From contig JASEGJ010000015.1 in NCBI GenBank assembly GCA_030018135.1, positions 1 to 24,298 of the forward strand: a stretch of 24,298 bases of DNA, in the 5' to 3' direction. Shown here piece by piece: positions 1,554-17,858 of the stretch (the first letter of the stretch is position 1; every line of letters begins with the position of its first letter). The position numbers were made by a program, and so were the translations under genes. The notes beneath the pieces are model-generated. The model was not told the DNA's origin. It saw nothing but the letters and a program-made list of their open reading frames with translations, and made no database searches. The stretch is from Candidatus Hodarchaeaceae archaeon (GTDB taxonomy: Archaea; Hadarchaeota; Hadarchaeia; Hadarchaeales; Hadarchaeaceae).

Positions 1554-2354
1554 CTTGGTAGCTGCCTTCATGGCCCTTCCAAATCCGTCGAGTTCCCTCA
1601 GCATTTTCCGCTCATTTTCACGATATCTTGCGACGATGTCGACGAAGGCGCTACCGACGATTGCGCCGTCCGCCCCCCACCTGAGCACCTCGCTGACGTG
1701 CGCGGGCTTGGATACCCCGAAGCCCACGGTGAGCGGCAGTTTGCCCCCCGAGGAGGCGCGCGCCCTAGCTATCAGCCCCCTGACCTCGTCGGACAGGCCC
1801 CTGCGCGCCCCCGTCACGCCGAGCAGCGAAACCAAATAGAGGAAGCCGCTCGAAAGGCTGCAGATTCGCCTCAGGCGCTCCGGCGTGGTGGTGGGCGAGG
1901 CCAGAAGGATGAGGTCGATGTCTTGATTTTTTGCGGCATTCAGCACCTCGCCCGACTCCTCCACCGGCAGATCGGGTATGACGATGCCATCGCCGCCCGC
2001 CGCGGCCAGCCTGCGCACGAAGTTCTCCACGCCAGGTCTGAACACGATGTTGCAATAGGAGAGCACCACCAGCGGCACATCGCTTCCGCTACGGATTCGC
2101 TCGATGATCTCGAAAACCGTCTCTGGGGTCGTGCCCGCCGAGAGCGCCCGGTCGTCCGAGGCTTGGATGGTCGGACCATCCGCGATCGGGTCGGAGAAGG
2201 GAAGGCCGAGTTCCAGGATATCCGCATGTTCGACGAGCACCTCGGCTATTCTCGGGGTCAGCGAGGGCCTGGGGTCGCCAGCCGTGACGAACGCGATCAA
2301 CGCGCCCTCCCCTCGTCCGCGCAGCTCGGCAAATTTCGCGGCTATCCTGCTCAA
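1542..2354 (-). CDS. trpA: Tryptophan synthase alpha chain
   Basis: Cleaves indole-3-glycerol phosphate to indole and glyceraldehyde 3-phosphate and passes indole to TrpB in the cytoplasmic complex. The TIM-barrel motifs are intact: AFVTAGDP near residue 22, [14 protein letters not shown] with the catalytic Glu and Asp near residues 47-58, and C-terminal GFGVSKP and [12 protein letters not shown]. The chosen start is TTG at 2352-2354, overlapping the trpB stop as TTGA. It gives 270 residues, right for TrpA; the longer open frame upstream is only read-through over trpB in another frame. It is the last gene of the trp operon and its end converges with the DUF1805 gene. Confidence 0.95.
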
Positions 2355-3547
2355 GTCTCGACCCCCATGTAGCGCGCCGCGATCTCCACATCCTTGTCGC
2401 CCCTGCCCGACAGGTTGATCACGACGAGCGCCCCCTTGCCCAGCTCCCGCCTCAGCCTCGGCAGGTACGCTAGCGCGTGCGCGGATTCCAGCGCCGGCAG
2501 GATGCCCTCGGTCTCGCACAGCAGCCTGAAAGCTTTCATCGCCTCGTCGTCGCCGACGCATCCATACTTGACGCGACCGCGCAGCTTCATGAACGCATGC
2601 TCCGGGCCGACGCCGGGGTAGTCCAGGCCAGCCGCTATGCTGTGCGTCCGCATGACCTGCCCGAACTCATCCTGCAACACGTAGCTGCGCGCGCCGTGCA
2701 GGACGCCCTCCGATCCGGCGCAAAGCGTTGCGGCATGCTTTCCCGTGCGAAGCCCCTCGCCGGCGGCCTCGACGCCGTAGAGCTTGACATCATCGTCGAG
2801 GAAATCGTAGAAGATGCCGATCGCATTGCTCCCGCCGCCGACGCAGGCGACGATGGCATCCGGCAGGCGACCCTCCTTCTCCAAGATCTGCTCCTTGGTC
2901 TCCCGCCCTATCACGCGCTGAAAGTCGCGCACGATCATGGGGTAGGGATGTGGGCCGACTATCGAGCCGAGCAGGTAGTACGTGGTGCGGACGTTTGTCG
3001 TCCAGTCCCGCAGGGCCTCGTTGATCGCGTCCTTGAGCGTGCGGGAGCCAGCCCTCACCTCGTGCACCTCAGCGCCGAGCAAGCGCATCCTAAACACGTT
3101 GAGGCGCTGCCGCTGCGCGTCCTTGCTACCCATGTATATCTCGCATTTCAGCCCAAGCATCGCGGCGGCCGTCGCGGTGGCCACACCGTGTTGGCCAGCA
3201 CCGGTCTCAGCGATGACACGTTTCTTGCCAATGTATTTGGCGAGCAGGCACTGCCCGAGTGTATTATTGAGCTTATGTGCACCTCCGTGCAAAAGGTCTT
3301 CTCTTTTCAAATACACCTTCAATCCCACTTCGGCCCCAAGCCGTTTGGCGCGGTAAAGAGGGGTCGGCCTACCGCCAAAATCTCCCAGCAATTTTTGAAG
3401 CTCCCTCTGAAACTTTGACCCCCTACTCACCTTTAGATAAGACTTCTCGAGTTCTTTGAGCGCGGGCATGAGCGTTTCAGGGACGAATTTTCCCCCGAAT
3501 TTTCCGAAGTATCCATGTTCGTCCGGGTATTTACCAACAAGGGACAT
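2351..3547 (-). CDS. trpB: Tryptophan synthase beta chain (TrpB1 type)
   Basis: PLP enzyme of 398 residues that condenses indole with serine to give tryptophan. The PLP lysine lies in the motif HGGAHKLNN (about residue 92), followed by [13 protein letters not shown] and the phosphate-binding GGGSNAIG loop. The [10 protein letters not shown] motif and the [20 protein letters not shown]-terminus are typical of TrpB1, the form that pairs with TrpA, rather than the stand-alone TrpB2. The ATG at 3547 lies 1 bp after the trpF stop, with a GGAGG ribosome site inside the end of trpF. It overlaps the trpA start. No lesion seen. Confidence 0.97.
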
Positions 3548-3548
3548 G

Positions 3549-4202
3549 TCAAAACGCCTCCTTCACCACCTCGACGAAAGCCCTCATCAACGCCGGGTCC
3601 TTTTTGCCGGGGCTCGATTCGACGCCGCTCGACACGTCCACGCCGTAGGGTCTCACGGCCTCGATCGCATCCCCCACATTGGCCGGGTTCAAGCCTCCAG
3701 CCAGAAACACCGGTTTGGAAACGGCATCCCGGATCATCCGGCTAATCCTCCAATCGTGCGTTAAGCCAGTGCCCCCGCCGGACGGCCCCTTGGTGTCGAG
3801 CAAGAGATAGTCGACAAACTCGCCAGCTTCGAGTGCACGGCTGAAAACTCCCTCCGGGTCTTCAACCCTTTGCGGCACCCCGACCACGCCGATCAGTTTG
3901 GCCCTCGTGATCCTCCTCGCCTGCTCAAACCGCTCAGCCGGAAGGCCCGAATGAATCTGCAGGTAATCCGGCTTCAGCTTCCGGGTTATCCTCCTGATCT
4001 CGATTGGACCATTGGGCACGACGACCACCACCTTCTCGACGGACTCGGGGACAACGCGCAGGATTTCGATCGCCCGCTCGAGTGCGACGTTCCTCGGCGA
4101 AGTTGGAGTTCCGACTAGCACGCCGATCATGTCCGCGCCGAGTTCGCAGGCGATCCTCGCGTCCTCGCCGTTCGTGAAGCCGCATATCTTGACCACGACC
4201 AC
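3549..4202 (-). CDS. trpF: Phosphoribosylanthranilate isomerase
   Basis: Converts N-(5-phosphoribosyl)anthranilate to CdRP, the third tryptophan-specific step. The catalytic cysteine is in VKICGFTN at the N-terminus and the general-acid aspartate in [14 protein letters not shown] near the C-terminus; [12 protein letters not shown] is the phosphate-binding loop. About 217 residues, normal size. The start is uncertain: GTG at 4200-4202 or GTG at 4194-4196, both just after the trpC stop and a GAGGTGA ribosome site. The longer open frame to 4244 overlaps trpC and is unlikely. Tight spacing on both sides places it firmly in the operon. Confidence 0.93.
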
Positions 4203-4206
4203 GAGC

Positions 4207-4977
4207 TCACCTCGCACTGACGAGCGATCGCACCTTACTCGCAACCTCGCTGGAGCGCATCAATGCGGTGCCGACGAGCACGGCATCCGCGCCCGCCTCG
4301 AGCACGGCCCTTACATCACCCGGCCCACTTATGCCGCTTTCGCTCACGAGCATCACATCGTCGGGCACCAGGGGGGCAAGTCGCCTGGTGCGACCGATGT
4401 CGACCCGCATGGTCCTCAGGTCGCGGTTGTTTATGCCGATGATTTCGGCTCCGGCCGAGGTGGCCAGTTTTACCTGCCCCTCGTCGCCGACCTCGACCAG
4501 GCTCTCCATCCCGAGCTCTCGAGCCAGCCCCATGAATCTGGGGAGCCTCCTCCCCAAGAGCTCGGTTATCAGCAGGATTGCATCGGCGCCCAGCTCGCCC
4601 GATTCATAAAGTTGGTACTCCTCGACGATGAAATCCTTCCGCAAGACGGGCACGTCCACGATTTTTCGTATCCTCGGCAGGTAGCTCGGGTCCCCCTTGA
4701 AGTACTTTGGCTCGGTCAACACCGACAGAGCGATCGCACCTCCGTCGACCATCGCCCGCGCCACCTCGAAAACATCAGCGTCAAGGTTGATGTCCCCGGC
4801 GGAAGGCGCCGCCCGCTTCACCTCGGCGATCAGCGGTACCTCGGGCGCCCCCTCGATGGCTTTTCGTAGGCTGCGCTTGGGTGAGCGATCGATGATCATC
4901 TCCCCGGCGGGCTTAACGCTGGCCCGCTGTCTTACCGCAGCCCGCACATCCCTCACGATTTTTTCGAGGACGTTCAG
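4207..4977 (-). CDS. trpC: Indole-3-glycerol phosphate synthase
   Basis: Closes the indole ring, converting CdRP to indole-3-glycerol phosphate. TIM-barrel landmarks are present: AEVKRAAPSAGDIN, PVLRKDFIVEEYQLYES, INNRDL and VSESGI. If translation begins at the GTG at 4954-4956 the protein has 249 residues but loses the usual N-terminal helix. The CTG at 4975-4977 would add MNVLEKI, matches the family start, overlaps the true trpD stop as CTGA, and sits 7 nt after a GGAGG ribosome site. I therefore give the CTG start, with the GTG as alternative. All catalytic motifs are intact. Confidence 0.93.
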   Translation of the reverse strand: MNVLEKIVRDVRAAVRQRASVKPAGEMIIDRSPKRSLRKAIEGAPEVPLIAEVKRAAPSAGDINLDADVFEVARAMVDGGAIALSVLTEPKYFKGDPSYLPRIRKIVDVPVLRKDFIVEEYQLYESGELGADAILLITELLGRRLPRFMGLARELGMESLVEVGDEGQVKLATSAGAEIIGINNRDLRTMRVDIGRTRRLAPLVPDDVMLVSESGISGPGDVRAVLEAGADAVLVGTALMRSSEVASKVRSLVSAR

Positions 4978-6049
4978 AGGATCGCCTCCAGTGCCCTCAA
5001 CTTTTGCATATCTCCGCCCGTGGCCTCGACGAGCCGGACGAGTTTCTCGTAGCTCCTGCCTGAGTCGATGGCCTCCTCCGCGGCCTCCAAGCCCTCCCGC
5101 ATATCGTTTGCCTTGCCGCCGACCACGATGGCGGCCGCCGCGTTGAGCAGAACTCCGCCGCGTTGAGCAGAACTATATCCCGCTTCGGTCCCTCCTCGCC
5201 GCGCAGCACCCTGAGCATCGTCAGCGCGTTTTCCGCCGCGTCCTCGCCGGCTATTGCGTGTGGACTCGCGCGCCGGATGCCGAAATCTTCCGGCGATATC
5301 GTATAGCTCCTGACGCCGCCATCGAAGACCTCCGAAATTTGGGTTACCCCAATCGTCGAAATTTCGTCCAAGCCACCCAAGCCATGGACGACCATGGCAC
5401 GCTCGCAGCCGAGCCTCGCCAACACGTGCGCGAGTTTTTCCGCCAAGGCGACATCGTAAACCCCCACCACCTGCGCCTGCGCGCCGGCGGGATTTGTGAG
5501 TGGGCCAAGCACGTTAAAAACGGTCCTCACGCCCATCTCCCTGCGCGGCCCTATCGCGTGCTTCATCGCACCGTGGAAGACTGGCGCAAACATGAAGCCG
5601 ATGCCGGTGCCCTCGATGACCCGCTTGACCTCCCGCGGCTGTAAGTCTATGCGCACGCCCAGGGCTTCGACCACATCGGCACTCCCCGCTCTGCTCGTTA
5701 CGGAACGGTTTCCATGTTTTGCTATCACGACCCCAGCGCCGGCCGCGACGAACGTGGCTGCCGTGCTGATGTTGAAGGTCTTGATCTTATCGCCGCCCGT
5801 GCCGCAGGTGTCGACCAGCAACCCATTCACGTTTGGATTTATCCGCGCAGCGAACTCCCGCATGACTCGGGCGAAGGCCGTGATTTCCGCGATGGTCTCG
5901 CCCTTCATGCGCAGGGCCGTCAGGAATGAGCCTATTTGAGCCGGCGTGGCCTCGCCGGACATTATGCATTTCATCGCGCCCTCGGCTTCTGCGTCCGTCA
6001 AATCTTTGCGATCGATTAGCTTCCCAATTATGGCATGCATGACGTTCAC
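4974..6049 (-). pseudogene. trpD: Anthranilate phosphoribosyltransferase, frameshifted by a 20-bp tandem duplication
   Basis: Transfers phosphoribose from PRPP to anthranilate. The PRPP-binding signature [16 protein letters not shown], the [21 protein letters not shown] segment and the [10 protein letters not shown] region are intact. The 20-bp unit at 5135-5154 is repeated exactly at 5155-5174, shifting the frame after [10 protein letters not shown] and replacing the last 50 or so residues with an arginine/serine-rich tail that stops at 4997. Removing one copy restores [20 protein letters not shown], gives 351 residues, normal for TrpD, and ends at the TGA at 4974-4976 that overlaps the trpC start. 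The GTG start (6047-6049) overlaps the stop of full-length trpG as GTGA. An assembly or sequencing artefact is as likely as real decay. Confidence 0.9.
5135..5174. repeat. Exact 20-bp tandem duplication inside trpD
   Basis: The unit CCGCCGCGTTGAGCAGAACT occurs at 5135-5154 and again at 5155-5174 without a mismatch. It is not a multiple of three and is the sole cause of the trpD frameshift. Confidence 0.97.
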
Positions 6050-6621
6050 GCGACCATCTCAAGAAAATTCTTTACGATGAGTTTTCCCTGCAGCGTCAGC
6101 ACGGACTCCGGATGAAATTGGACCCCTCAGATGGGGTATCGCTTGTGCCTGAGCCCCATGATCTCGCAATCCTCGTCGACGGTCTCCGCCACCACCTGCA
6201 GACAGCTCGGCAGGGTTGCGCGGTCGACGGCCAATGAATGGTAGCGCGTTGCCCTGAAGGGGTTCGGCACCCTTTCGAAAAGCCTGCTGTCGTCGTGTCT
6301 TATGAGCGAGGTCTTGCCGTGCATCAAACGCTTTGCCTGCACCACCCTTCCGCCAAATGCATAGGCGATTGCTTGGTGCCCGAGACAAACGCCCAGGGTC
6401 GGCACCCTTTTGCCCAGCCTCTTGACGACGTTCACGGAGACGCCGGCATCCTTCGGGGTCTTCGGGCCAGGGGAGATCACCACCCCGTCCGGCTTTGCCT
6501 CGATGATCTTTCGCAGGGAGATATCGTTCGTGAAGATCACAGGCTCGGCGCCGAGCTCGCCCAAATACTGCACGAGATTGTAGACGAAAGAGTCGATGTT
6601 ATTTATCACGGCGATACGCAT
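6046..6621 (-). pseudogene. trpG: Anthranilate synthase glutamine amidotransferase, interrupted by in-frame TGA
   Basis: Class I glutamine amidotransferase that supplies ammonia to TrpE. The oxyanion motif SPGPKTP and the nucleophile Cys in GVCLGHQAIAYAFGG are present. The frame stops at TGA 6127-6129 after 164 residues (HKRYPI), then continues in the same frame as GVQFHPESVLTLQGK and ends at TGA 6046-6048, overlapping the trpD GTG. The missing piece holds the catalytic His-Pro-Glu, so the truncated product should lack glutaminase activity unless TGA is read through. Homologues often have an aromatic or acidic residue at this spot, and a TGG (Trp) to TGA change is one base. The start ATG directly follows the trpE stop (TAA-ATG). 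Confidence 0.9.
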
Positions 6622-8181
6622 TTAAACACCCGCCGCCGCGAGCAAAGATCTCGCCTTGTTCTCGGTTTCATAATATTCCTTCCATGGCGTGGAATCCGCG
6701 ACTATGCCCGCGCCGACCTGAATGTAGCCCACGCCGCGCTCGGCCACCAAAGTCCTTATGGTGATCGCGAGATCGGCTTGGCCGGCGTAGTTCAGCGAGC
6801 CTATCGCCCCGGCGTAAATTCCGCGCCTCGTCGGCTCGAGCTCCTCAATTATCTCCATCGCCCGAACCTTTGGCGCGCCGGTGACGGTACCGGCGGGAAA
6901 GGTTGCCCGCAGCGCGTCGAGTTCACCCTCGCCTTCCCGCAGCCGCCCGGCCACCGTACTCACGAGGTGTTGGACGTGACCATACTTCTCGATTTTCATG
7001 AACTCCGTGAGCCTGACCGAACCGAACTCGCAGACGCGCCCGATATCGTTCCTCCCAAGGTCGACGAGCATGACGTGCTCCGCCCGCTCCTTTTCATCCG
7101 CCAGCAGACCTTGTTCGAGAGCCCTGTCCTCCTGCTCATCCTTACCCCTTCGCCTGGTGCCAGCGATTGGCCTCGTCACCACCTCCCGGCCGTCGACCTT
7201 CACGAGGATTTCCGGGCTTGAGCCGACGATGCTTCGCCTCGGGAAGTCCAAGAAGAACATGTATGGAGAGGGGTTGATCCGCTTGAGGTTCATATAAAAT
7301 CGCCCGAGCGGCGGCGCTGGTTCGAGCCTGATCCTCCTCGAAAGTACGACTTGAATGATGTCGCCTGCGCGGATGTAGTCCTTAGCTACCTCAGCGCTTC
7401 TCTCGAAGTCAGCCTTTTCGACGTTCGACTTAAACGTTATTCTTGAGTCGGCCTCGGCTCTAGGGGTGGGTTTCATCGCCTTGAGCCACTTGATATTGGC
7501 GAGCGCTCGCTCGTATGCCGTTCGCACATCGAAGCCGTCTGTGAGCAACATCAGCGAGTAGCAGTAGGTGCGGCGCTCCAAGTGGTCGAAGATCATCGCT
7601 CGCTCGGGCAACATGAATTCCACATCTGGGTGGCGAAGGTCGTCGATAGCATGGTTGTCTAGGTCGACGACGGAGCGGATGAAATCATAGCTGATGTAAC
7701 CCACAGCACCGAGCATGTAACGCGGGCCCAGTATTCGAGGCACTTGCATGCTCTTGAGGAACATGGCCTCCTTCAGCACCTCGAGTGAGTCGGAACCGTG
7801 TCTAACACGCTCCGCGCGGCTCCTAGCGAGTTCGACAACGTCTGGCCTACCGCTGACCTCCAACACGCAGTCTCGGACAGCGACGTATAGCAGCGGGTCG
7901 CATCCCATGACCGAGTACCTCGCGGCATGCTGCGGTCCCTCGGCCGATTCGAGCAGGTAGGACGAGCGATGCAGTCGCCTGATGCGCAGGTACGTCTTGG
8001 CCGGATCCGTGCAGCCTCCAATCGCGATGGCAAGCGGAATTAGGCAGGGCCTGCCGAGTTCATCGGCTAGTTGGCTGGCCTCCTCGATGCTTGGGGTCGG
8101 CTTCGATGGTTTTTCTCCCTTCAAGTTTAAGCCCAAAGAGGTTTCTAGGGCTTTTGTACTATTTAAGGCTTTGTTGTACAT
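6622..8181 (-). CDS. trpE: Anthranilate synthase component I
   Basis: Turns chorismate plus ammonia into anthranilate. The chorismate-binding domain is intact: GSSPEILVKVDG, RPIAGTRRRG, DEKERAEHVMLVDLGRND, YGHVQHLVS and TVTGAPKVRAMEII. The LLES motif at residues 76-79 belongs to the tryptophan feedback pocket in studied homologues, so allosteric inhibition is expected. The ATG at 8181 gives 519 residues with about 28 more than usual at the N-terminus, and a TATA-like box (8159-8167) lies inside that extension. The real start may be TTG at 8134-8136 or 8122-8124, giving a leaderless or short-leader mRNA. First gene of the trp operon; abuts trpG. Confidence 0.95.
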   Translation of the reverse strand: MYNKALNSTKALETSLGLNLKGEKPSKPTPSIEEASQLADELGRPCLIPLAIAIGGCTDPAKTYLRIRRLHRSSYLLESAEGPQHAARYSVMGCDPLLYVAVRDCVLEVSGRPDVVELARSRAERVRHGSDSLEVLKEAMFLKSMQVPRILGPRYMLGAVGYISYDFIRSVVDLDNHAIDDLRHPDVEFMLPERAMIFDHLERRTYCYSLMLLTDGFDVRTAYERALANIKWLKAMKPTPRAEADSRITFKSNVEKADFERSAEVAKDYIRAGDIIQVVLSRRIRLEPAPPLGRFYMNLKRINPSPYMFFLDFPRRSIVGSSPEILVKVDGREVVTRPIAGTRRRGKDEQEDRALEQGLLADEKERAEHVMLVDLGRNDIGRVCEFGSVRLTEFMKIEKYGHVQHLVSTVAGRLREGEGELDALRATFPAGTVTGAPKVRAMEIIEELEPTRRGIYAGAIGSLNYAGQADLAITIRTLVAERGVGYIQVGAGIVADSTPWKEYYETENKARSLLAAAGV

Positions 8182-8189
8182 AATTGTAC
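8155..8189 (-). promoter_or_regulatory. trp operon promoter with three phased TGTAC boxes
   Basis: TGTAC occurs on the plus strand at 8155-8159, 8175-8179 (as TGTACA) and 8185-8189, that is 20 and 10 bp apart, on one face of the helix. Between the first two sits CTTAAATAG (minus strand, 8159-8167), a good archaeal TATA box, placing the transcript start near 8138. The two upstream boxes form an inverted repeat with 5-bp arms (GTACA-ATTA-TGTAC). TrpY of Methanothermobacter binds TGTACA TRP boxes around its trp promoter, so a tryptophan-responsive repressor is a reasonable inference. Confidence 0.6.
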
Positions 8190-8287: not shown

Positions 8288-9076
8288 CTAATAGACGATG
8301 ACGCTCTGCACGCTCGGCAGCTTGCGGAGCGCCTCGATTACTTCCCCCTTGACTGGCTCGTCGGTGATGATCGTCAGCTTGGGCTGCGGCACAAAATACG
8401 GGTCGTCAGCAATCGCCTGTCTGATGCTTATGCCAAACCTTGAGATCGCGCCAGTGACCTCGCTTATTATGCCCGGCCGAGTGGCATCCCTGGGCAGGAT
8501 CTCCACCACGCCAAGCCCGAGCCGCCGAGACACGCCCTTGAGGTAGGCGATCGGTTCGAGGTTTGCAAACACCTCCCGCAGTTCCCTGTTCTGGAGGATT
8601 GCCCTAGCCGCTGCATCGACGACGCGCCTATCGACGCCAGCTTCCTTGGCGATTTGAACGGCGGGGATGCGGATGTCCCCGCACGCGATCTCGCCGTCAT
8701 CGCGGACGCGCAGGCCATATTTAAACAGCACTCGAACGACGTTTAGTTGCGCGGGATGGCCCTCGAATGCCCCTTGAACTTGGGCCCACATCCCCGCCCC
8801 GCCCGCGCGCTCGATCTGAGCACCAGCCATCTGGGCAATGGTCAGCCTCATCAGGCTCTCGATGAACGCCGGGTCTAAGCCCTTCTTCTTCGCCCTCTCC
8901 TTCGCCAAAGCCACAATCGCCCGTTCCCTCGCCTCATCGCGGATGCCCGCGCCCAGCTTTTTCTTTAGGGCGACCAAGTCCTCGACGAGCCTCAGCCTTT
9001 GAGCGAGCAGGTCTATCAGCTGCTCATCGATCCGATCTATCTCGCGCCGCAGGGCCCCCAATTTCCTCTCGCTCAT
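8288..9076 (-). CDS. aroQ: Chorismate mutase (AroQ) fused to an HTH-ACT regulator domain
   Basis: Residues 1-90 are an AroQ-type chorismate mutase helix bundle (LRREIDRIDEQLIDLLAQRL, KKKLGAGIRDEARE), which converts chorismate to prephenate. Residues 95-262 look like the stand-alone archaeal family annotated as predicted regulator of amino acid metabolism with ACT domain (COG2150): an HTH-like stretch at 138-160 (IPAVQIAKEAGVDRRVVDAA) and an ACT domain at 187-262 opening with GVVEILPRDATRPGIISEV. The two parts are each of normal length, so this is a clean fusion. The ATG overlaps the aroK stop (ATGA). ACT domains bind amino acids, so the enzyme may be allosteric, DNA-binding, or both; that is inference. 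Confidence 0.88.
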   Translation of the reverse strand: MSERKLGALRREIDRIDEQLIDLLAQRLRLVEDLVALKKKLGAGIRDEARERAIVALAKERAKKKGLDPAFIESLMRLTIAQMAGAQIERAGGAGMWAQVQGAFEGHPAQLNVVRVLFKYGLRVRDDGEIACGDIRIPAVQIAKEAGVDRRVVDAAARAILQNRELREVFANLEPIAYLKGVSRRLGLGVVEILPRDATRPGIISEVTGAISRFGISIRQAIADDPYFVPQPKLTIITDEPVKGEVIEALRKLPSVQSVIVY

Positions 9077-9945
9077 GATTTAACCTCCATGCGCGCCCCT
9101 TCTATCGACGGCCTAGTAACTACTATCCTACCCGGTCTCTTTTGCCATATCCTTTTTACTCTGCCGACGTCGCCCGGCCTAGCTATTGCCACAACTGCTG
9201 GCCCGGTGCCAGTCAGGCCAGCTGCGAGGGCACCCATCTTCAGCGCATCTAGCGCGATGTCCTGATCGTGTCCGAGCGCACAGGAGTAGAGCAAACCGTT
9301 GAGCGTCAGGGCGCCCAAGATGTCCCCTCCCAACGCTTGTTTGTGGGCAGCTTCGACAAATTTTGACAGGAGTTTAGTCCTCTCGACATCGACCCGAGCG
9401 GTGTGAAGTTTGGCAGGTGGCACGTGGATAAGCACCCTCAGCTTTGGGTCGACCCTGAAGCGCTTCAGTACGCGCCGCTTGAAATTGTCCGTTATCACGC
9501 CGCCGCCAAAAAAGGAGGCAGCGGCATCGTCAAGCGCGCCCGTGATTGTAACGCCCGCCTCCAGGGCTGCGTCTATGCCCAAGTTTACGGCGACCTTGGG
9601 CTGAGGCTTTTCGCCAAGCGCGGCAAAGGTCGCCAAGATTGTGGCGTTGGCTGCGGCGCTGCTGCTGGACAGGCCAACGGCTATTGGCACCTCGGAGGTC
9701 GTCGATATCTTTGCGCCATAGGTGCGATCTAACCCGAGGTGTTCGAGAACCCTCCGCGCGCAAACCTCTATCAGGCGCGGGCTTTCAGATGGCTCGTCAG
9801 CTATTCGCCCCACGATCTCGCCAGCCCGATCCGTAAGCTCAACTTCCGCTCGAACGCGCAGGTCGACGGCGAATGCGGCCCCCTTGCCAGTCGCGATGGC
9901 GTTGACCACGGTCGCGGAGCCGCAGGCGGAGGCGATGCCCCTCAC
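9073..9945 (-). CDS. aroK: Shikimate kinase, archaeal GHMP type
   Basis: Phosphorylates shikimate at the 3-OH using ATP. It is not related to bacterial AroK but belongs to the GHMP kinase superfamily, shown by the ATP-binding glycine/serine loop [16 protein letters not shown] at residues 87-102, the N-terminal [20 protein letters not shown] substrate segment and the C-terminal [13 protein letters not shown] motif. 290 residues, usual for the family. The GTG start overlaps the aroC stop (GTGA), and the stop overlaps the chorismate mutase start. The symbol aroK is used by function. Confidence 0.93.
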
Positions 9946-11048
9946 TTTCTTACCTCGAACCGATTGGGATCTATTTTGCCAGCGCGGAGCATTTGGTCGG
10001 CCAGCACGATCGCGAGCATGGCCTCAGCTACGGGGACTATGCGCGGGCAGATGTTGGGATCGAATCTTCCCTTGAGTTTCAGCTCGACCTCCTCCATGCG
10101 CGCGATGTCGACCGTGCGCTGGGGCTTGGTTATGGACGGCGTGGGTTTGACCGCTATTCTGGCGACGATCGGCATGCCCGTGCTTATCCCGCCGAGAATT
10201 CCTCCCGCGTTATTTGTCAGGCTCACGATCTTCCCCCTCCTCAGCGCCAGAGGATCGTTCATCTCGGAGCCCCGCATCCTCGTTGCCATGAAGCCAGCGC
10301 CTATTTCAACTCCCTTGACCGAGCCGATCGACATCAGTGCGTGAGCAATCTCAGCGTCGAGCTTATCGAACACTGGATCGCCGAGCCCGGCTGGCACGTT
10401 GAGCGCGAGCACCTCGACCACGCCGCCCGTGCTATCGCCCGCCTCGCTCGCCTTCAGCACCTCTTCCTTCATCCTTTCGGCAACGCCCAGGTCGGCGCAC
10501 CTCATCGGATTTTTTTCAACATTTTTTCTGATCTCGTCCGGCTTGACCTCTCGTCCAACCGCCACGCCGGCCGCCTCGACGGTATGCCCAAGGACCTCGA
10601 TGCCGTGCGCGGCCAGGAGCTTCTTGGCGATAGCACCGGCCGCGACCCGAGCGATGGTTTCCCTCGCCGCCCCCCTGCCACCTCCACGGTGGTCGATGTG
10701 CCCGAACTTCAGCCAATAAGGGAGTTCGACATGCCCAGGTCTGGGCTTGGTCTTTATCGCCTCATAGGGGCTTGAGTCGACATCGACGTTGCGCACGAGC
10801 ATGCAGATCGGCGTGCCCAAAGTTTTGCCTTCGAACACGCCCGATAGGATCTCAACGCGATCCCTCTCGGCCCTTGGGGTCGTGACGATCGATTGACCCG
10901 GGCGGCGACGGTCAAGCTCCCGTTGCACATCGGCCTCGCTCAGGGGCATGCCCGCTGGCACGCCGTCCACGACTACGCCGATGGCGACGTTGTGCGATTC
11001 TCCGAACGACATCATGCGAAAAATCTTTCCAAAGGTGTTTCCGCCCAT
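9942..11048 (-). CDS. aroC: Chorismate synthase
   Basis: Eliminates phosphate from EPSP to give chorismate and needs reduced FMN. Family signatures are present: [16 protein letters not shown] at the N-terminus, [10 protein letters not shown], the [12 protein letters not shown] segment and [21 protein letters not shown]. The ATG at 11046-11048 ([10 protein letters not shown]) gives 368 residues and fits the family start, with GGGGTGG upstream as ribosome site; the open frame to 11207 runs into aroA and is ignored. The motif usually FGESHG reads FGESHN here. A TTTTAAAAGG TATA-like element at about 11074-11083 could give a second promoter in the 115-bp gap to aroA. Confidence 0.95.
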
Positions 11049-11163
11049 AATGCCACCCCATCTGAGCTTTAACATGCCTTTTAAAATCCTCCATTTTTCA
11101 ATGTTTTCGGCTGAATGTATATCTCCATGTTGCTTTTGTAACCTTTGGCCCCAGAGGTAAACG

Positions 11164-12453
11164 TCACCACACAAGTTCCAGCCGACCACCCAATTTTCGC
11201 ATGTCATCGATGAAGTTTGGGTAAGACACTTTAACGCTCTCCGCCCCGTCTATGACCGTCTCCCCCTTTGCGACCAGACCAGCGACCGCTAGCGCCATGG
11301 CCATGCGGTGGTCGCCGTAGGAGGTAAGGCTGGCGCCCTTGAGCTGCTTTACCCCCCGCAGGTGGAGTTCGCCGGGCAACTCCTTCACCCGGGCCCCCAA
11401 TTTGTGCAGCTCGCTGGCGAGCGCGCGGAGACGGTCCGTCTCCTTGTACCTGAGGTGTGGGATGTTTGTGAGTGCCGTCCGACCATCGGCGACCGCCCCG
11501 AGCACCGCGAGCACCGGCACTAGGTCGGGGTTGTCGCCGCAATCCGCTTCAATCCCGGTCAGCCCTCCGGCGCCGGTGACCTCTACGGTCCTGCCCCGAA
11601 CCCTCAAATCAACCCCAAACTCGCGGAGCATGTCGACTATGCGCTTGTCCCCCTGCGCCCCGCGGACATCGAGGTTGTTCACCCTGACTTCAACCCCGGT
11701 CAGCGCCGCAGCCCCGAGGACAAATGCTGCGGATGAAAAATCGCCCGGGATGCTGAATCGGGTTGCCTTGAAAACTTGCCTTCCCGGGATCCAGAATTCC
11801 GTGAGGGCCCGATTGTGCTTGATCTTTGCCCCAACCGCGTCCAGCACCTCGAGCGTTATCTCGACGTAGGGCCTGGAGCGCAGTTCCTCGGTTATCGATA
11901 GCTCGACGCCGCCCTCGGAATACGGACATGCGAGCAGCAAAGCTGAGATGAATTGTGAGCTGACCGCGCCGGTGATCTCGACCTCCCCCCCTTTGAGCCC
12001 GCCCCCCACAACGACCGGCGGTCTGCCCCTCGGTCCCTCGCACCTCGCCCTGGCGCCCAGCTTCGCCAGGGTTTCTATGAGCTGCCCCATCGGGCGCGCG
12101 CGAATCGAAGCGTCGCCCGTCAGGTGCACGGAACTCGGCGACAGCGCGGCGATCGCGCTCATGAAGCGAAGCGTGGTGCCGGAGTTGCGCACATCGATGA
12201 GGTCGGCTCTTGGCTCGAGGTGCCCCGCGGTGCCGACAATCCGCCAAGTCGTCCCTTCTTGTTTGACCTCAGCGCCGAGGATTCGAGAGGCATCGATGGT
12301 GGCCAGAGTATCAAAACTCAGAAGCGGGTCGATGACTCTACTTTCGCCGCGCGCGAGCAGGCCTATGGAAAACGCCCGATGCGTGTAGCTCTTCGATGGT
12401 GGGGCGGTGACCTCGCCAGCAAGCGTCGATGGCTTGACCCTTAGGATGGCCAT
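11164..12453 (-). CDS. aroA: 3-phosphoshikimate 1-carboxyvinyltransferase (EPSP synthase)
   Basis: Joins PEP to shikimate 3-phosphate. The two-domain inverted alpha/beta enzyme is complete at 429 residues: the substrate-binding [10 protein letters not shown] near residue 18, the PEP-site [10 protein letters not shown] near 89, the [12 protein letters not shown] segment, [17 protein letters not shown] with the catalytic Asp, RYKETDRL with the catalytic Glu, and [15 protein letters not shown]. The ATG at 12453 is preceded by GCGGGAAG and by a TATA-like CTATATTAG about 35 bp upstream. First gene of the minus-strand aroA-aroC-aroK-aroQ unit, divergent from the plus-strand aro operon. Confidence 0.96.
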
Positions 12454-12483
12454 GAACTTCCCGCTAAACAGTCTTCAAAAGCC

Positions 12484-12492
12484 CTAATATAG
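12484..12492. promoter_or_regulatory. Shared TATA-like box between divergent aro operons
   Basis: CTAATATAG reads as a TATA box in both directions. On the minus strand it puts a start near 12463, 10 nt before the aroA ATG (12453). On the plus strand it puts a start near 12513, 17 nt before the small leader ORF ATG (12530), which has its own GGTGA ribosome site. One box driving both operons is inference. Confidence 0.45.
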
Positions 12493-12529
12493 CGTTTGAT
12501 AACTCAATGATTAGCCAACGGTGAAAAAC

Positions 12530-12679
12530 ATGGGGAAGGCAGGGTGCTGCGCGGAGCCCTGTTGCTTTTATTGCTGGAGTAGCCCCTGTTTCAGTAGATG
12601 GAACCTTTTTTGCCAATTCGGCATGCATTTTAACATGTACATTCTTAACTCGGAAGGGGTGGTTGATTGTCAGAGATAG
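12530..12679 (+). CDS. Putative aromatic- and cysteine-rich leader peptide (49 aa)
   Basis: ATG at 12530 follows GGTGA by 5 nt; the frame stops at TAG 12677-12679 after 49 codons and overlaps the first 13 nt of the ADH synthase gene, allowing translational coupling. Nine of residues 13-37 are aromatic (Phe13, Tyr14, Trp16, Phe21, Trp24, Phe27, Phe30, Phe34, Tyr37) and eight residues overall are Cys, including CCFYCW. A peptide packed with Phe, Tyr and Trp codons before a Phe/Tyr/Trp pathway operon is what an attenuation leader looks like. Alternatives are a small zinc-binding protein or a chance frame in T-rich spacer. No hit can be claimed. Confidence 0.35.
12540..12588 (+). promoter_or_regulatory. 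Two mutually exclusive hairpins over the leader ORF
   Basis: The arm CAGGGTGCT (12540-12548) can pair with AGCCCTG (12555-12561) or, more fully, with AGCCCCTG (12581-12588; eight pairs, one bulged base). The codons Phe13-Tyr14-Cys15-Trp16 (12566-12577) lie between the two right arms. A T6 run follows at 12606-12611 and a small TGCC/GGCA hairpin at 12611-12623. Competing stems with regulatory codons between them resemble an attenuator; no folding energy has been computed. Confidence 0.3.
12628..12641 (+). promoter_or_regulatory. TTTTAA / TGTACA element before the aro operon
   Basis: TTTTAA (12628-12633) is followed directly by TGTACA (12636-12641), 26 bp before the TTG start of ADH synthase. 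It repeats the pairing of TATA-like box and TGTAC element seen at trpE. If it is a promoter, the leader ORF upstream would be bypassed; the two models compete. Confidence 0.35.
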
Positions 12680-15314: not shown

Positions 15315-16177
15315 TATCGGGTAAAACAAAACTTTTCGCGCTGATGGGCGATCCCGTGGAGCAAAGCCTCTCGCCGGCGATGCACAACGCAGCCTTTAGG
15401 GCGCTCGGGCTCGATTGCGTGTATCTCGCGCTCAGGGTACAAAGGGCGATGTTGGCGGATGCCATAGCTGGCGTCCGTGCATTGGGCATAACTGGCCTAA
15501 ATGTCACACACCCGCACAAGGTCAATGTCTTAAATTTGCTCGATGAACTGGATGAATCGGCGAGCGCGGTTGATGCAGTCAACACCATCAAAAATGATAG
15601 GGGCAAGCTCGTAGGCTTCAACACGGACGGGCCTGGCGCCGTTCTAGCGCTCGAGCGAGAGGTCGGTAAGCTAGCTGGTCGTAGAGTTTTATTGCTCGGC
15701 GCTGGAGGGGCGGCTCGATCCATAGCTTTCTCGCTGGCCAAAGCGCGGGCGGAGTTAACTATCGCGAACCGCACCGCCCTCAAGGCGCAGGGACTGGTCG
15801 CCGCGATCAAACAGAGGCTGGGGGTGGACGTGGGGCAAATAGGAATAGGGCGCAAGGAGCTTGCGGGTGCCATAAAGCGGGCGGATATCCTCATAAATGC
15901 GACGACGATCGGCATGCGCCCGAACATCAACCGAACCCTCGTGACGGCGAGCATGATGCACCGCGATCTAGTGGTCAACGATATAGTTTACGAGCCAGTT
16001 CAGACGAGGCTGCTCCGAGAGGCAAGAAAAGCTGGCGCTAGGACGGTAACAGGTTTAGGGATGCTTGTGCATCAAGGGGTATTGGCGTTCGAAATATGGA
16101 CGGGCAGGAGGGCGCCGATTAAATTTATGAGGACAGCAGTTAAACGTGAGCTGCGCAGACGGGGTGAGAAGGTTTGA
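15311..16177 (+). CDS. aroE: Shikimate dehydrogenase
   Basis: NADP-dependent reduction of 3-dehydroshikimate to shikimate. The substrate site SLSPAMHNAAF (residues 19-29), the catalytic Lys70 in NVTHPHK and Asp106 in GFNTDGPGA are all present, followed by the nucleotide-binding LLLGAGGAARSIAF near residue 131 and the NRTALKAQ segment. 288 residues, normal. The ATG start overlaps aroD (ATGA) and the stop overlaps the TTG start of tyrA (TTGA). Confidence 0.96.
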   Translation: MISGKTKLFALMGDPVEQSLSPAMHNAAFRALGLDCVYLALRVQRAMLADAIAGVRALGITGLNVTHPHKVNVLNLLDELDESASAVDAVNTIKNDRGKLVGFNTDGPGAVLALEREVGKLAGRRVLLLGAGGAARSIAFSLAKARAELTIANRTALKAQGLVAAIKQRLGVDVGQIGIGRKELAGAIKRADILINATTIGMRPNINRTLVTASMMHRDLVVNDIVYEPVQTRLLREARKAGARTVTGLGMLVHQGVLAFEIWTGRRAPIKFMRTAVKRELRRRGEKV

Positions 16178-17040
16178 GGTTCGCGATCATCGGCGCGGGC
16201 GCGATGGGTAAATGGTTTGCCAGCTTTGCGAAGCAAAACTTGGGCGAGGTCGAGGTAGCAGACGTAAGTGCCGCAAAGGCTAGGCAGGTCGCTGATGAGC
16301 TGGGCGTGAAAGCAGCGGAGACGGGCGCCGAGGCAGCTGCTCGGGCGGATGTCGTCATAGTCGCAGTGCCAATCACCAAAACTCCGGATGTTGTTAAATC
16401 GCTCGCGAAATGCATGCGGAAGGGCTCGCTCATGATGGACATCGCGTCGGCGAAGAGCGATGTGGTGGGCACGATGCGTGAACTCGATGTTGAGCTTGAG
16501 CTCGTTTCGATTCATCCGCTCTTTGGCCCAGGAGCGGCGACCATGAGCGGAAAAGATTTTGTGGTCGTTCCCGTAAAGCCGGGGAAACTCTACGCCGAGT
16601 TTAAACGGCGTTTGGTGGAGCTAGGCGCACGTGTAACCGAAATGGAGGCGGAGGAACACGACCGCATAATGGCGATCTCTCAATGTCTAACGCACTTTGT
16701 GCTCCTTTCGTACCTCTCCGCACTTAATTCGATGAAGGACTCGAGGCGCGCGAAACAACTATGCACGCCCATGTCCGAAGCCCTGCTCAATCTGGCCAAA
16801 TCCGTCCTAGCTGGAAACCCGGACCTTTACGGCGAGGTTCAAGTCCTAAATAGGTATGCGCAACTTACGCGCAGCAAGTTGATGGAGGCCTGTCACTCGC
16901 TAGATGTGGCATTCGCGGCACGCGATATCAAGGTAGCTCGCAAGATCTTCAGCGATTCGTTGAAGCTATTGGGTCGGGCGGATGCGCAAGCCGCATATAA
17001 GCAATTGTACAAGTACCTAGAGAGCGGGGAAGGAACATGA
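16174..17040 (+). CDS. tyrA: Prephenate dehydrogenase
   Basis: Oxidatively decarboxylates prephenate to 4-hydroxyphenylpyruvate, the tyrosine precursor. The Rossmann motif GAGAMG occupies residues 7-12, and the catalytic His114 lies in SIHPLFGPG. A helical dimerisation domain with EHDRIMAISQCLTHFVL follows. No chorismate mutase or ACT domain is attached, so the mutase step falls to the separate aroQ fusion. 288 residues. The TTG start is set by the 4-base overlap with aroE and by the Rossmann strand beginning at once (MRFAIIGAG). The stop overlaps the pheA ATG. Confidence 0.95.
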   Translation: MRFAIIGAGAMGKWFASFAKQNLGEVEVADVSAAKARQVADELGVKAAETGAEAAARADVVIVAVPITKTPDVVKSLAKCMRKGSLMMDIASAKSDVVGTMRELDVELELVSIHPLFGPGAATMSGKDFVVVPVKPGKLYAEFKRRLVELGARVTEMEAEEHDRIMAISQCLTHFVLLSYLSALNSMKDSRRAKQLCTPMSEALLNLAKSVLAGNPDLYGEVQVLNRYAQLTRSKLMEACHSLDVAFAARDIKVARKIFSDSLKLLGRADAQAAYKQLYKYLESGEGT

Positions 17041-17858
17041 AGGTTGCCATACTTGGTCCACGCGGCACATACGCGGAGATCGCTGCCCGCTTGAGGTTTG
17101 GTAGCAGCGCCGAAATCGCGCCGTATTCGATGATTACAGATGTGGCTGAGGCAGTGGCGCGCGGTGAGGTCGACGCCGGCATCATACCAGTCGAAAGCCT
17201 ACGCGAGGGCTCGGTGGGCGAGGCACTGGATGCGCTCGCTTGGACGGATATAAAGGTTCAGGCGGAGATTGTGGTGCCGATATCTCATTGCCTGATCGGC
17301 GTGCCGGGTGCAAAACTCGAAAATATCACGCAGGTGCTCTCCCACCCCCAGGCACTGGCGCAGTGTCGGGATTTCCTGCGCAAAAATCTACCAAAGGCTG
17401 AGCTGATCGAAATGACGAGCACGGCGAGGGCCGCTGAACAAGTGGGCAAACTTAAACAGCCATATATGGCGGCGATAGGACCTAGAGCGCTGGCGGACAC
17501 CTACGGGCTGGAGGTGTTGCGGGGAAACATACAAGCAAGCGAGATGAATATAACCCGGTTCCTGTGTCTGGCCAAAGAGGACAGCAGGCCAACTGGCCAC
17601 GACAAGACATCGATAGTCTTTTACACCGCGGAGGATAGGCCGGGCATATTGTATGAAATTCTGCGGGAGTTCGCGGTGCGGAACATCAACCTGACGAAGA
17701 TAGAGTCGCGCCCCTCCAAGAGGGTATTGGGCGATTATCTATTCTTCATAGATTTTGAGGGTCACCGTGAAGATGCTCGGGTGCGCGAGGCCCTAGAGGC
17801 CCTGCAGACCAAGGTAGCGATGCTCAAGGTCGTCGGATCGTATCCAAAACGCTTTTGA
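17037..17858 (+). CDS. pheA: Prephenate dehydratase with ACT domain
   Basis: Converts prephenate to phenylpyruvate. The dehydratase domain covers residues 1-180, from VAILGPRGTYAE to the catalytic Thr173-Arg174-Phe175 in NITRFL, with SHPQALAQC between. The ACT domain starts near residue 191 (TSIVFYTAEDRPGILYEI) and has the ESRP motif at 223-226 that forms the phenylalanine site, so feedback inhibition by phenylalanine is expected. 273 residues, typical of mutase-free archaeal PheA. The ATG overlaps tyrA (ATGA). Confidence 0.96.
   Translation: MKVAILGPRGTYAEIAARLRFGSSAEIAPYSMITDVAEAVARGEVDAGIIPVESLREGSVGEALDALAWTDIKVQAEIVVPISHCLIGVPGAKLENITQVLSHPQALAQCRDFLRKNLPKAELIEMTSTARAAEQVGKLKQPYMAAIGPRALADTYGLEVLRGNIQASEMNITRFLCLAKEDSRPTGHDKTSIVFYTAEDRPGILYEILREFAVRNINLTKIESRPSKRVLGDYLFFIDFEGHREDARVREALEALQTKVAMLKVVGSYPKRF

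Follow-up and report, generated by a model that had tools for sequence, protein, structure and literature searches.

The locus studied here raises the question of whether one archaeal polypeptide can both draw on chorismate as an enzyme and control transcription of a competing pathway and, if so, whether the two activities share a sensor. It lies in a 24,298-nucleotide stretch of contig JASEGJ010000015.1 (the window) from a Hadarchaeota metagenome-assembled genome (MAG; 1.1 Mb assembly, 93% complete), a phylum of which we know no cultured member. Judging from sequence, we consider it quite probable that the gene encodes a two-function protein, a competent AroQ chorismate mutase (CM) with a C-terminal TrpY-type, Trp-responsive transcription regulator. 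The gene and its predicted domains are as follows.

8288..9076, minus strand: CM-TrpY fusion gene, 262 aa with an ATG start (ORF and domain matches; phylum-wide family)
8801..9076, minus strand: AroQ chorismate mutase domain, about residues 1-93 (CM_2, alignment with 1ecm, invariance in 23 genomes, model)
8519..8791, minus strand: TrpY winged HTH (wHTH) domain, residues 96-186 (NF053754, alignment with free TrpY, model)
8291..8515, minus strand: ACT domain, putative amino-acid sensor, residues about 188-262 (Pfam ACT, model)

The original prediction was of a complete AroQ mutase joined in one 262-residue frame to a complete COG2150-like HTH and ACT protein, and domain searches bear this out. 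Pfam CM_2 matches residues 9-82 (E 2.4e-18, 66.5 bits against a gathering threshold of 27) and Pfam ACT residues 200-254, and the NCBIfam model TrpY_fam (NF053754) aligns over profile positions 1-163 of 163 to residues 97-259, with 206.2 bits against a cut-off of 180. Because of the last match, the COG2150-like half can be named more sharply as TrpY, the family to which the repressor of the trp operon in Methanothermobacter thermautotrophicus belongs (PMC6737238). The two-domain split also stands, with its limits moved from 1-90 and 95-262 to about 1-93 and 96-262. In the alignment, Met96-Trp97 of the fusion corresponds to the native Met-Trp start of free TrpY and directly follows the last CM helix, at a junction whose length never varies across the phylum, and gaps in the 262-residue alignment are confined to five N-terminal columns. 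Coupling between the domains is possible because the junction keeps this Met-Trp start behind the last CM helix and the alignment is nearly free of indels. An invariant DRR (residues 149-151) lies in the predicted recognition region of the wHTH.

Two other accounts of the frame were considered and rejected. A separate TrpY product from an internal start at Met96 is not conserved, because this residue is V, W or I in many relatives; and the fusion is not an artefact of chimeric assembly, since the full-length fusion is present in 23 Hadarchaeota genomes. In two of the fusion ORFs (L004 and L016, of G021 and G024) none of the codons ATG, GTG and TTG stands at the expected start, and rare start codons are possibly used; L016 has CTG at the aligned start position, and L004 has none of these four codons.

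TrpY matches were found in 23 of the 28 Hadarchaeota genomes, all above the NF053754 cut-off, and every one of them is fused to CM. A 24th carrier (G003) holds the start of the same fusion, interrupted at a contig end. CM and TrpY are both absent from three further MAGs (G005, G013 and G014), in which the operator described below is present; assembly gaps are likely there because the operator is retained. For the MAG G001, searches found no CM, TrpY or TrpE match and no operator. Within the limits set by gaps in the MAGs, the fusion is the only real CM found across the 28 genomes, in which one sub-threshold CM match occurs (G023), and it is the sole TrpY and the sole CM found in the source genome. 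Twelve named Hadesarchaea records, all from Hadesarchaea/Hadarchaeum MAGs, match residues 1-262 at 65-77% identity. The fusions form a single group in a TrpY-domain tree (SH-aLRT 98), and the fusion has, on the sequences sampled, a single origin.

Free TrpY is common in other archaea. No frame holding both CM and TrpY occurred among the matches listed from 394 related genomes, 151 genomes of one methanogen-like phylum and 392 genomes of another phylum, which are overlapping sets covering several hundred archaeal genomes outside Hadarchaeota; 'methanogen-like' is a label that rests on gene order. The 151- and 392-genome searches used the full-length fusion profile, with which a fusion would outscore free TrpY. 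G243 and G099 were taken up as candidates for their long frames (321 aa and 245 aa), and G568, G573, G659, G728, G782 and G826 for matches with low start positions; no CM domain lies in frame in any of them. In three genomes of family f35 (G068, G088 and G198; loci L148, L149 and L155), the genes for CM and free TrpY lie side by side in divergent orientation, a hint that the functional link between the two is of older date. A literature search, confined mostly to papers outside subscription, returned no description of a CM-TrpY fusion. The concern that the fusion might be common and already characterised is therefore not borne out: as sampled, it is widespread in Hadarchaeota and confined to them, and no paper describing it was found.

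For the mutase half, the profile numbering differs from that of E. coli CM (1ecm) by one throughout the alignment. Because of this constant offset, R10, R27, K38, D47, R50 and E51, which are invariant in the 23 genomes, are the equivalents of E. coli Arg11', Arg28, Lys39, Asp48, Arg51 and Glu52. Variation is seen at position 87, which aligns with E. coli Q88 (Q in 7 genomes, E in 16), and at position 83, the Ser84 equivalent (Met in 16 genomes, Ser in 4, Thr in 2 and Ala in 1; Met in the window); in yeast CM the Gln88 position is occupied by Glu. The model of the CM part has the three-helix AroQ fold and superposes on 1ecm with Z 13.0 and 1.5 A over 91 residues. The cut-off of the nearest archaeal-CM equivalog in NCBIfam, CM_archaeal (TIGR01791), was not reached (50 bits against 66.95). 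Both enzymes that use the product of the mutase are encoded in the same window.

16174-17040, plus strand: prephenate dehydrogenase (family match)
17037-17858, plus strand: prephenate dehydratase with ACT (family match)

Since this dehydrogenase and dehydratase are present, a mutase is needed; and it is supported that the CM half would be catalytically competent and, as the cell's only mutase, make prephenate for Phe and Tyr.

The regulator half was examined in structure models. An HTH-only model reached pLDDT 88.8 and pTM 0.80, with structural neighbours that are mostly DNA-binding wHTH domains, although at weak scores (Z up to 5.8), so that the HTH fold on which the original prediction depends is present in the model. 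The ACT model matches the ACT domains of PGDH, AHAS and related proteins at Z about 9-10. Gly244 of the fusion is the counterpart of Gly149 of M. thermautotrophicus TrpY, counting from MWKQ, which we take to be the position of a Trp-blind mutant. The full-length AlphaFold model (pTM 0.40, with pLDDT under 50 at residues 92-95, the junction) does not support a fixed arrangement of the domains.

The gene stands between aro and trp genes, and its neighbours in the window are these.

11164..12453, minus strand: aroA, EPSP synthase, first gene of its unit (family match)
9942..11207, minus strand: aroC, chorismate synthase (family match; neighbour of aroK in 22 of 23 loci, the remaining one being at a contig edge)
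9073..9945, minus strand: aroK, archaeal (GHMP) shikimate kinase (TIGR01920; adjoins the fusion in 23 of 23 genomes)
6622..8136, minus strand: trpE, first gene of the trp operon predicted to be regulated (TrpE families; start moved from the ATG at 8181)
2351..6621, minus strand: trpG, trpD, trpC, trpF and trpB (ORFs; trpG and trpD by families, trpC, trpF and trpB by eye from translations)

As had been proposed, the fusion gene ends the aroA-aroC-aroK unit, overlapping aroK by 4 bp (ATGA, 9073-9076), and is followed after 98 bp by the conserved trpE operator and promoter; trpA follows the rest of the trp operon, below 2351. Across the phylum, aroK is the gene immediately preceding the fusion in all 23 loci, and in 3 of 23, the window included, trpE follows it. 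The fusion gene is codirectional with and behind aroK, not divergent from trpE as in the M. thermautotrophicus arrangement; the divergent trpY/trpE arrangement concerns where the gene lies and does not define the TrpY protein family. Within the trp operon of the window, trpG (6000-6621, minus strand) carries an in-frame stop immediately ahead of the conserved GVQFHPES motif, which is either a real nonsense mutation or an error in the MAG sequence, and trpD shows an apparent frameshift near its 3' end (4997-5150, minus strand), where the family match ends at residue 299 and the normal C-terminus lies in another frame.

Two elements before trpE bear on the predicted DNA binding by the TrpY half.

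8155..8189, minus strand: tripartite operator GTACA-N5-GTACA-N15-GTACA upstream of trpE (0 mismatches; no better match elsewhere in the 1.1 Mb genome)
8160..8167, minus strand: TATA-like box of trpE, CTTAAATA (enclosed by the operator boxes; same position in relatives)

The operator (8189-8155, minus strand) reads GTACAattaTGTACAacaaagccttaaataGTACA, with boxes 10 and 20 bp apart. Because the listed ATG of trpE at 8181 falls inside it, translation probably starts at a TTG further downstream, at 8136 or 8124. The layout occurs in 15 of 16 hadarchaeal trpE promoters, with 12-15 of 15 box letters and at most 3 of 200 shuffles as good, whereas pabB-like control promoters (n=11) lack the operator and reach 7-10 of 15; the exception is the trpE promoter of G018, which has no clear operator. 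When the phylum was searched with the pattern, 27 sites were found at <=2 mismatches and, at <=3 mismatches, 36 sites against 14 for the backward control. Ten genomes have the operator before a trpB2-like gene, and in the source genome only the trpE site matches perfectly and the trpB2 site (G000:C2:23188-23222) has 2 mismatches. It also occurs once before an apparent amino-acid permease, a fragment of which matches no NCBIfam model. Searches of the phylum and the source genome found the operator only at trpE, trpB2 and this one permease, with none at pheA/tyrA or aro genes, and the aro-fusion unit itself has no GTACA operator. The same 10/20 bp layout (GTACATTATTATACAGACAAGATTTAAATAGTACT) is present in methanogen-like genomes with trpY divergent from trpE. 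TGTACA is the published TRP box, and the result on geometry is independent of this identification.

Two other places in the window were rejected as operators. The aroA/ADTH-synthase intergenic region (12454-12667) holds a single TGTACA, at 12636, and TTGTACAA at 17005-17012 falls inside the prephenate dehydrogenase gene. The trpB2-like gene of the source genome (L200, G000:C2:20500-26000) is followed, by eye, by a short Lrp/AsnC ligand-binding-like gene, an arrangement shared with other genomes. In the trpE promoter of G022 (L084), the three boxes are jointly changed to GTGCA or the palindromic form (GCACA), and the TrpY part of the same genome (L019) deviates near the recognition region (VVEQVAERIL) and at the near-invariant Gly244; operator boxes and regulator possibly co-vary there.

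In M. thermautotrophicus, TrpY represses trp via TRP boxes, but TrpY of T. kodakarensis does not bind its trp promoter, and TrpY homologues differ in function by lineage (PMC6737238). For the hadarchaeal fusion, predicted DNA binding and Trp-operon control are well supported in silico because the operator recurs at trpE and trpB2 with the geometry of methanogen-like trpY. The idea of an enzyme that also binds DNA is therefore supported with respect to the trp genes, but not for the second target first suggested, 12600-12670, which has one TGTACA and no tripartite operator.

We infer that Trp is the ligand and repression the sign of regulation. The TrpY half would bind the GTACA boxes that enclose the TATA box at the trp operon and also, in many of the genomes, at trpB2; when Trp is plentiful and bound at the ACT domain, access of TBP/TFB to the trpE and trpB2 promoters would be blocked, resulting in repression. 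The CM half, as sole mutase of the cell, would supply prephenate for Phe and Tyr, and translation of the fusion gene with aroC and aroK would let the amounts of mutase and regulator rise with the supply of chorismate. As the mutase and the TrpY regulator are the same protein, they could share one amino-acid sensor. A rigid junction would let Trp at the ACT domain affect the mutase, sending chorismate to Phe and Tyr while the trp genes are shut. Such an influence of Trp through the junction is proposed tentatively. It is more doubtful that the whole protein is one allosteric unit, in which Trp at the ACT domain would fix the TrpY half on the trpE and trpB2 operators and at the same time raise mutase activity. 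A reverse signal, by which chorismate or prephenate in the mutase site tunes DNA binding, may also exist.

The main competitor to such coupling accepts both activities as real and holds that they are independent, the fusion fixing only their ratio and co-expression with no crosstalk between the domains; we give it a substantial chance, though a little short of even. The two domains are self-contained with separate folds, the AlphaFold model has its lowest confidence at the junction, and fusions of aromatic enzymes often serve no more than joint expression. However, a passive tether would be expected to drift in length, and this one is constant over the phylum; and because CM and ACT are both dimerising domains, their two states could hardly be fully independent. 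The regulator might instead be an activator, or answer Phe or Tyr as well, rather than act as a Trp repressor, since archaeal aromatic regulators differ by lineage and Tar of T. kodakarensis is an activator. This is unlikely: the boxes overlap the TATA box on both sides, which is a repressor layout, the sites leave out pheA/tyrA and the aro genes, and the layout matches that at the targets of methanogen-like trpY.

Readings in which one half has lost its function fare worse. A CM domain reduced to a dimerisation or chorismate-sensing module of the regulator would account for the changes of Ser84 to Met and Gln88 to Glu, and the CM fold does dimerise, but we regard it as very improbable that the enzyme has been lost, as the six active-site equivalents are invariant and the genomes encode prephenate-using enzymes yet no other real CM. 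It is even harder to credit that the TrpY half no longer binds DNA and serves only as an allosteric ACT domain of the mutase. ACT domains commonly regulate aromatic enzymes, and the matches of the wHTH to solved folds are weak; nevertheless, the DRR region and the wHTH are invariant, the operator is kept at trpE and trpB2 across the phylum, and these genomes have no separate TrpY. Our preferred reading remains a working mutase joined to a Trp-responsive repressor.

Both halves belong to known families; what is new is the CM-TrpY architecture together with its operator and small Trp regulon. The fusion would unite an enzyme and a predicted repressor in a single polypeptide at a central branch point of metabolism, in an arrangement fixed across an archaeal phylum, and offers a clean system for asking whether one ligand-binding event sets both flux and transcription. 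If the coupled reading is true, a single sensor diverts chorismate from Trp at the gene and enzyme levels at once. Hadarchaeota gain a predicted regulator, an operator and a small Trp regulon (the trp operon, trpB2 and, once, the apparent permease), and their operator layout is traced to that of methanogen-type TrpY. As TrpY homologues differ in function by lineage, the fusion adds a group with strong operator evidence.

The closest known relative is TrpY of M. thermautotrophicus (NF053754), to whose family the whole C-terminal half belongs, and methanogen-like trpY/trpE regions share with hadarchaeal trpE the operator geometry around the TATA box. In contrast, free TrpY lacks a CM domain and its gene diverges from trpE, whereas the fusion is CM-joined and stands at the end of an aro unit; and methanogen trpY is autoregulated, whereas the hadarchaeal aro-fusion unit has no operator of its own. 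Tar of T. kodakarensis (TK0271), described separately from the TrpY homologue TK1227 (PMC6737238), is likewise an aromatic-pathway regulator encoded in an aro operon. Unlike the fusion, Tar is an activator with the site TGGACA-N8-TGTCCA and has no CM. PutA, BirA and NadR combine a metabolic enzyme and a DNA-binding repressor in one polypeptide, as proposed for the fusion, but belong to other pathways and folds and have no family relation to CM-TrpY.

On the enzyme side, the mutases of E. coli (1ecm), P. furiosus (1ybz) and M. jannaschii (2gtv) have the fold and active-site residues in common with the fusion. PheA (CM-prephenate dehydratase), TyrA (CM-prephenate dehydrogenase), AroA(G) (CM-DAHP synthase) and the CM-PDT-PDH protein of Archaeoglobus resemble it in joining CM to a partner able to bring feedback control, but this partner is an enzyme and has no HTH. 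PheA and CM-PDT-PDH are named in the main text of a 2024 survey of archaeal fusions, from which CM-TrpY is absent (PMC11237513). The AroQ mutases named here are either free or joined to enzymes of the pathway, whereas the partner in Hadarchaeota is a predicted DNA-binding regulator.
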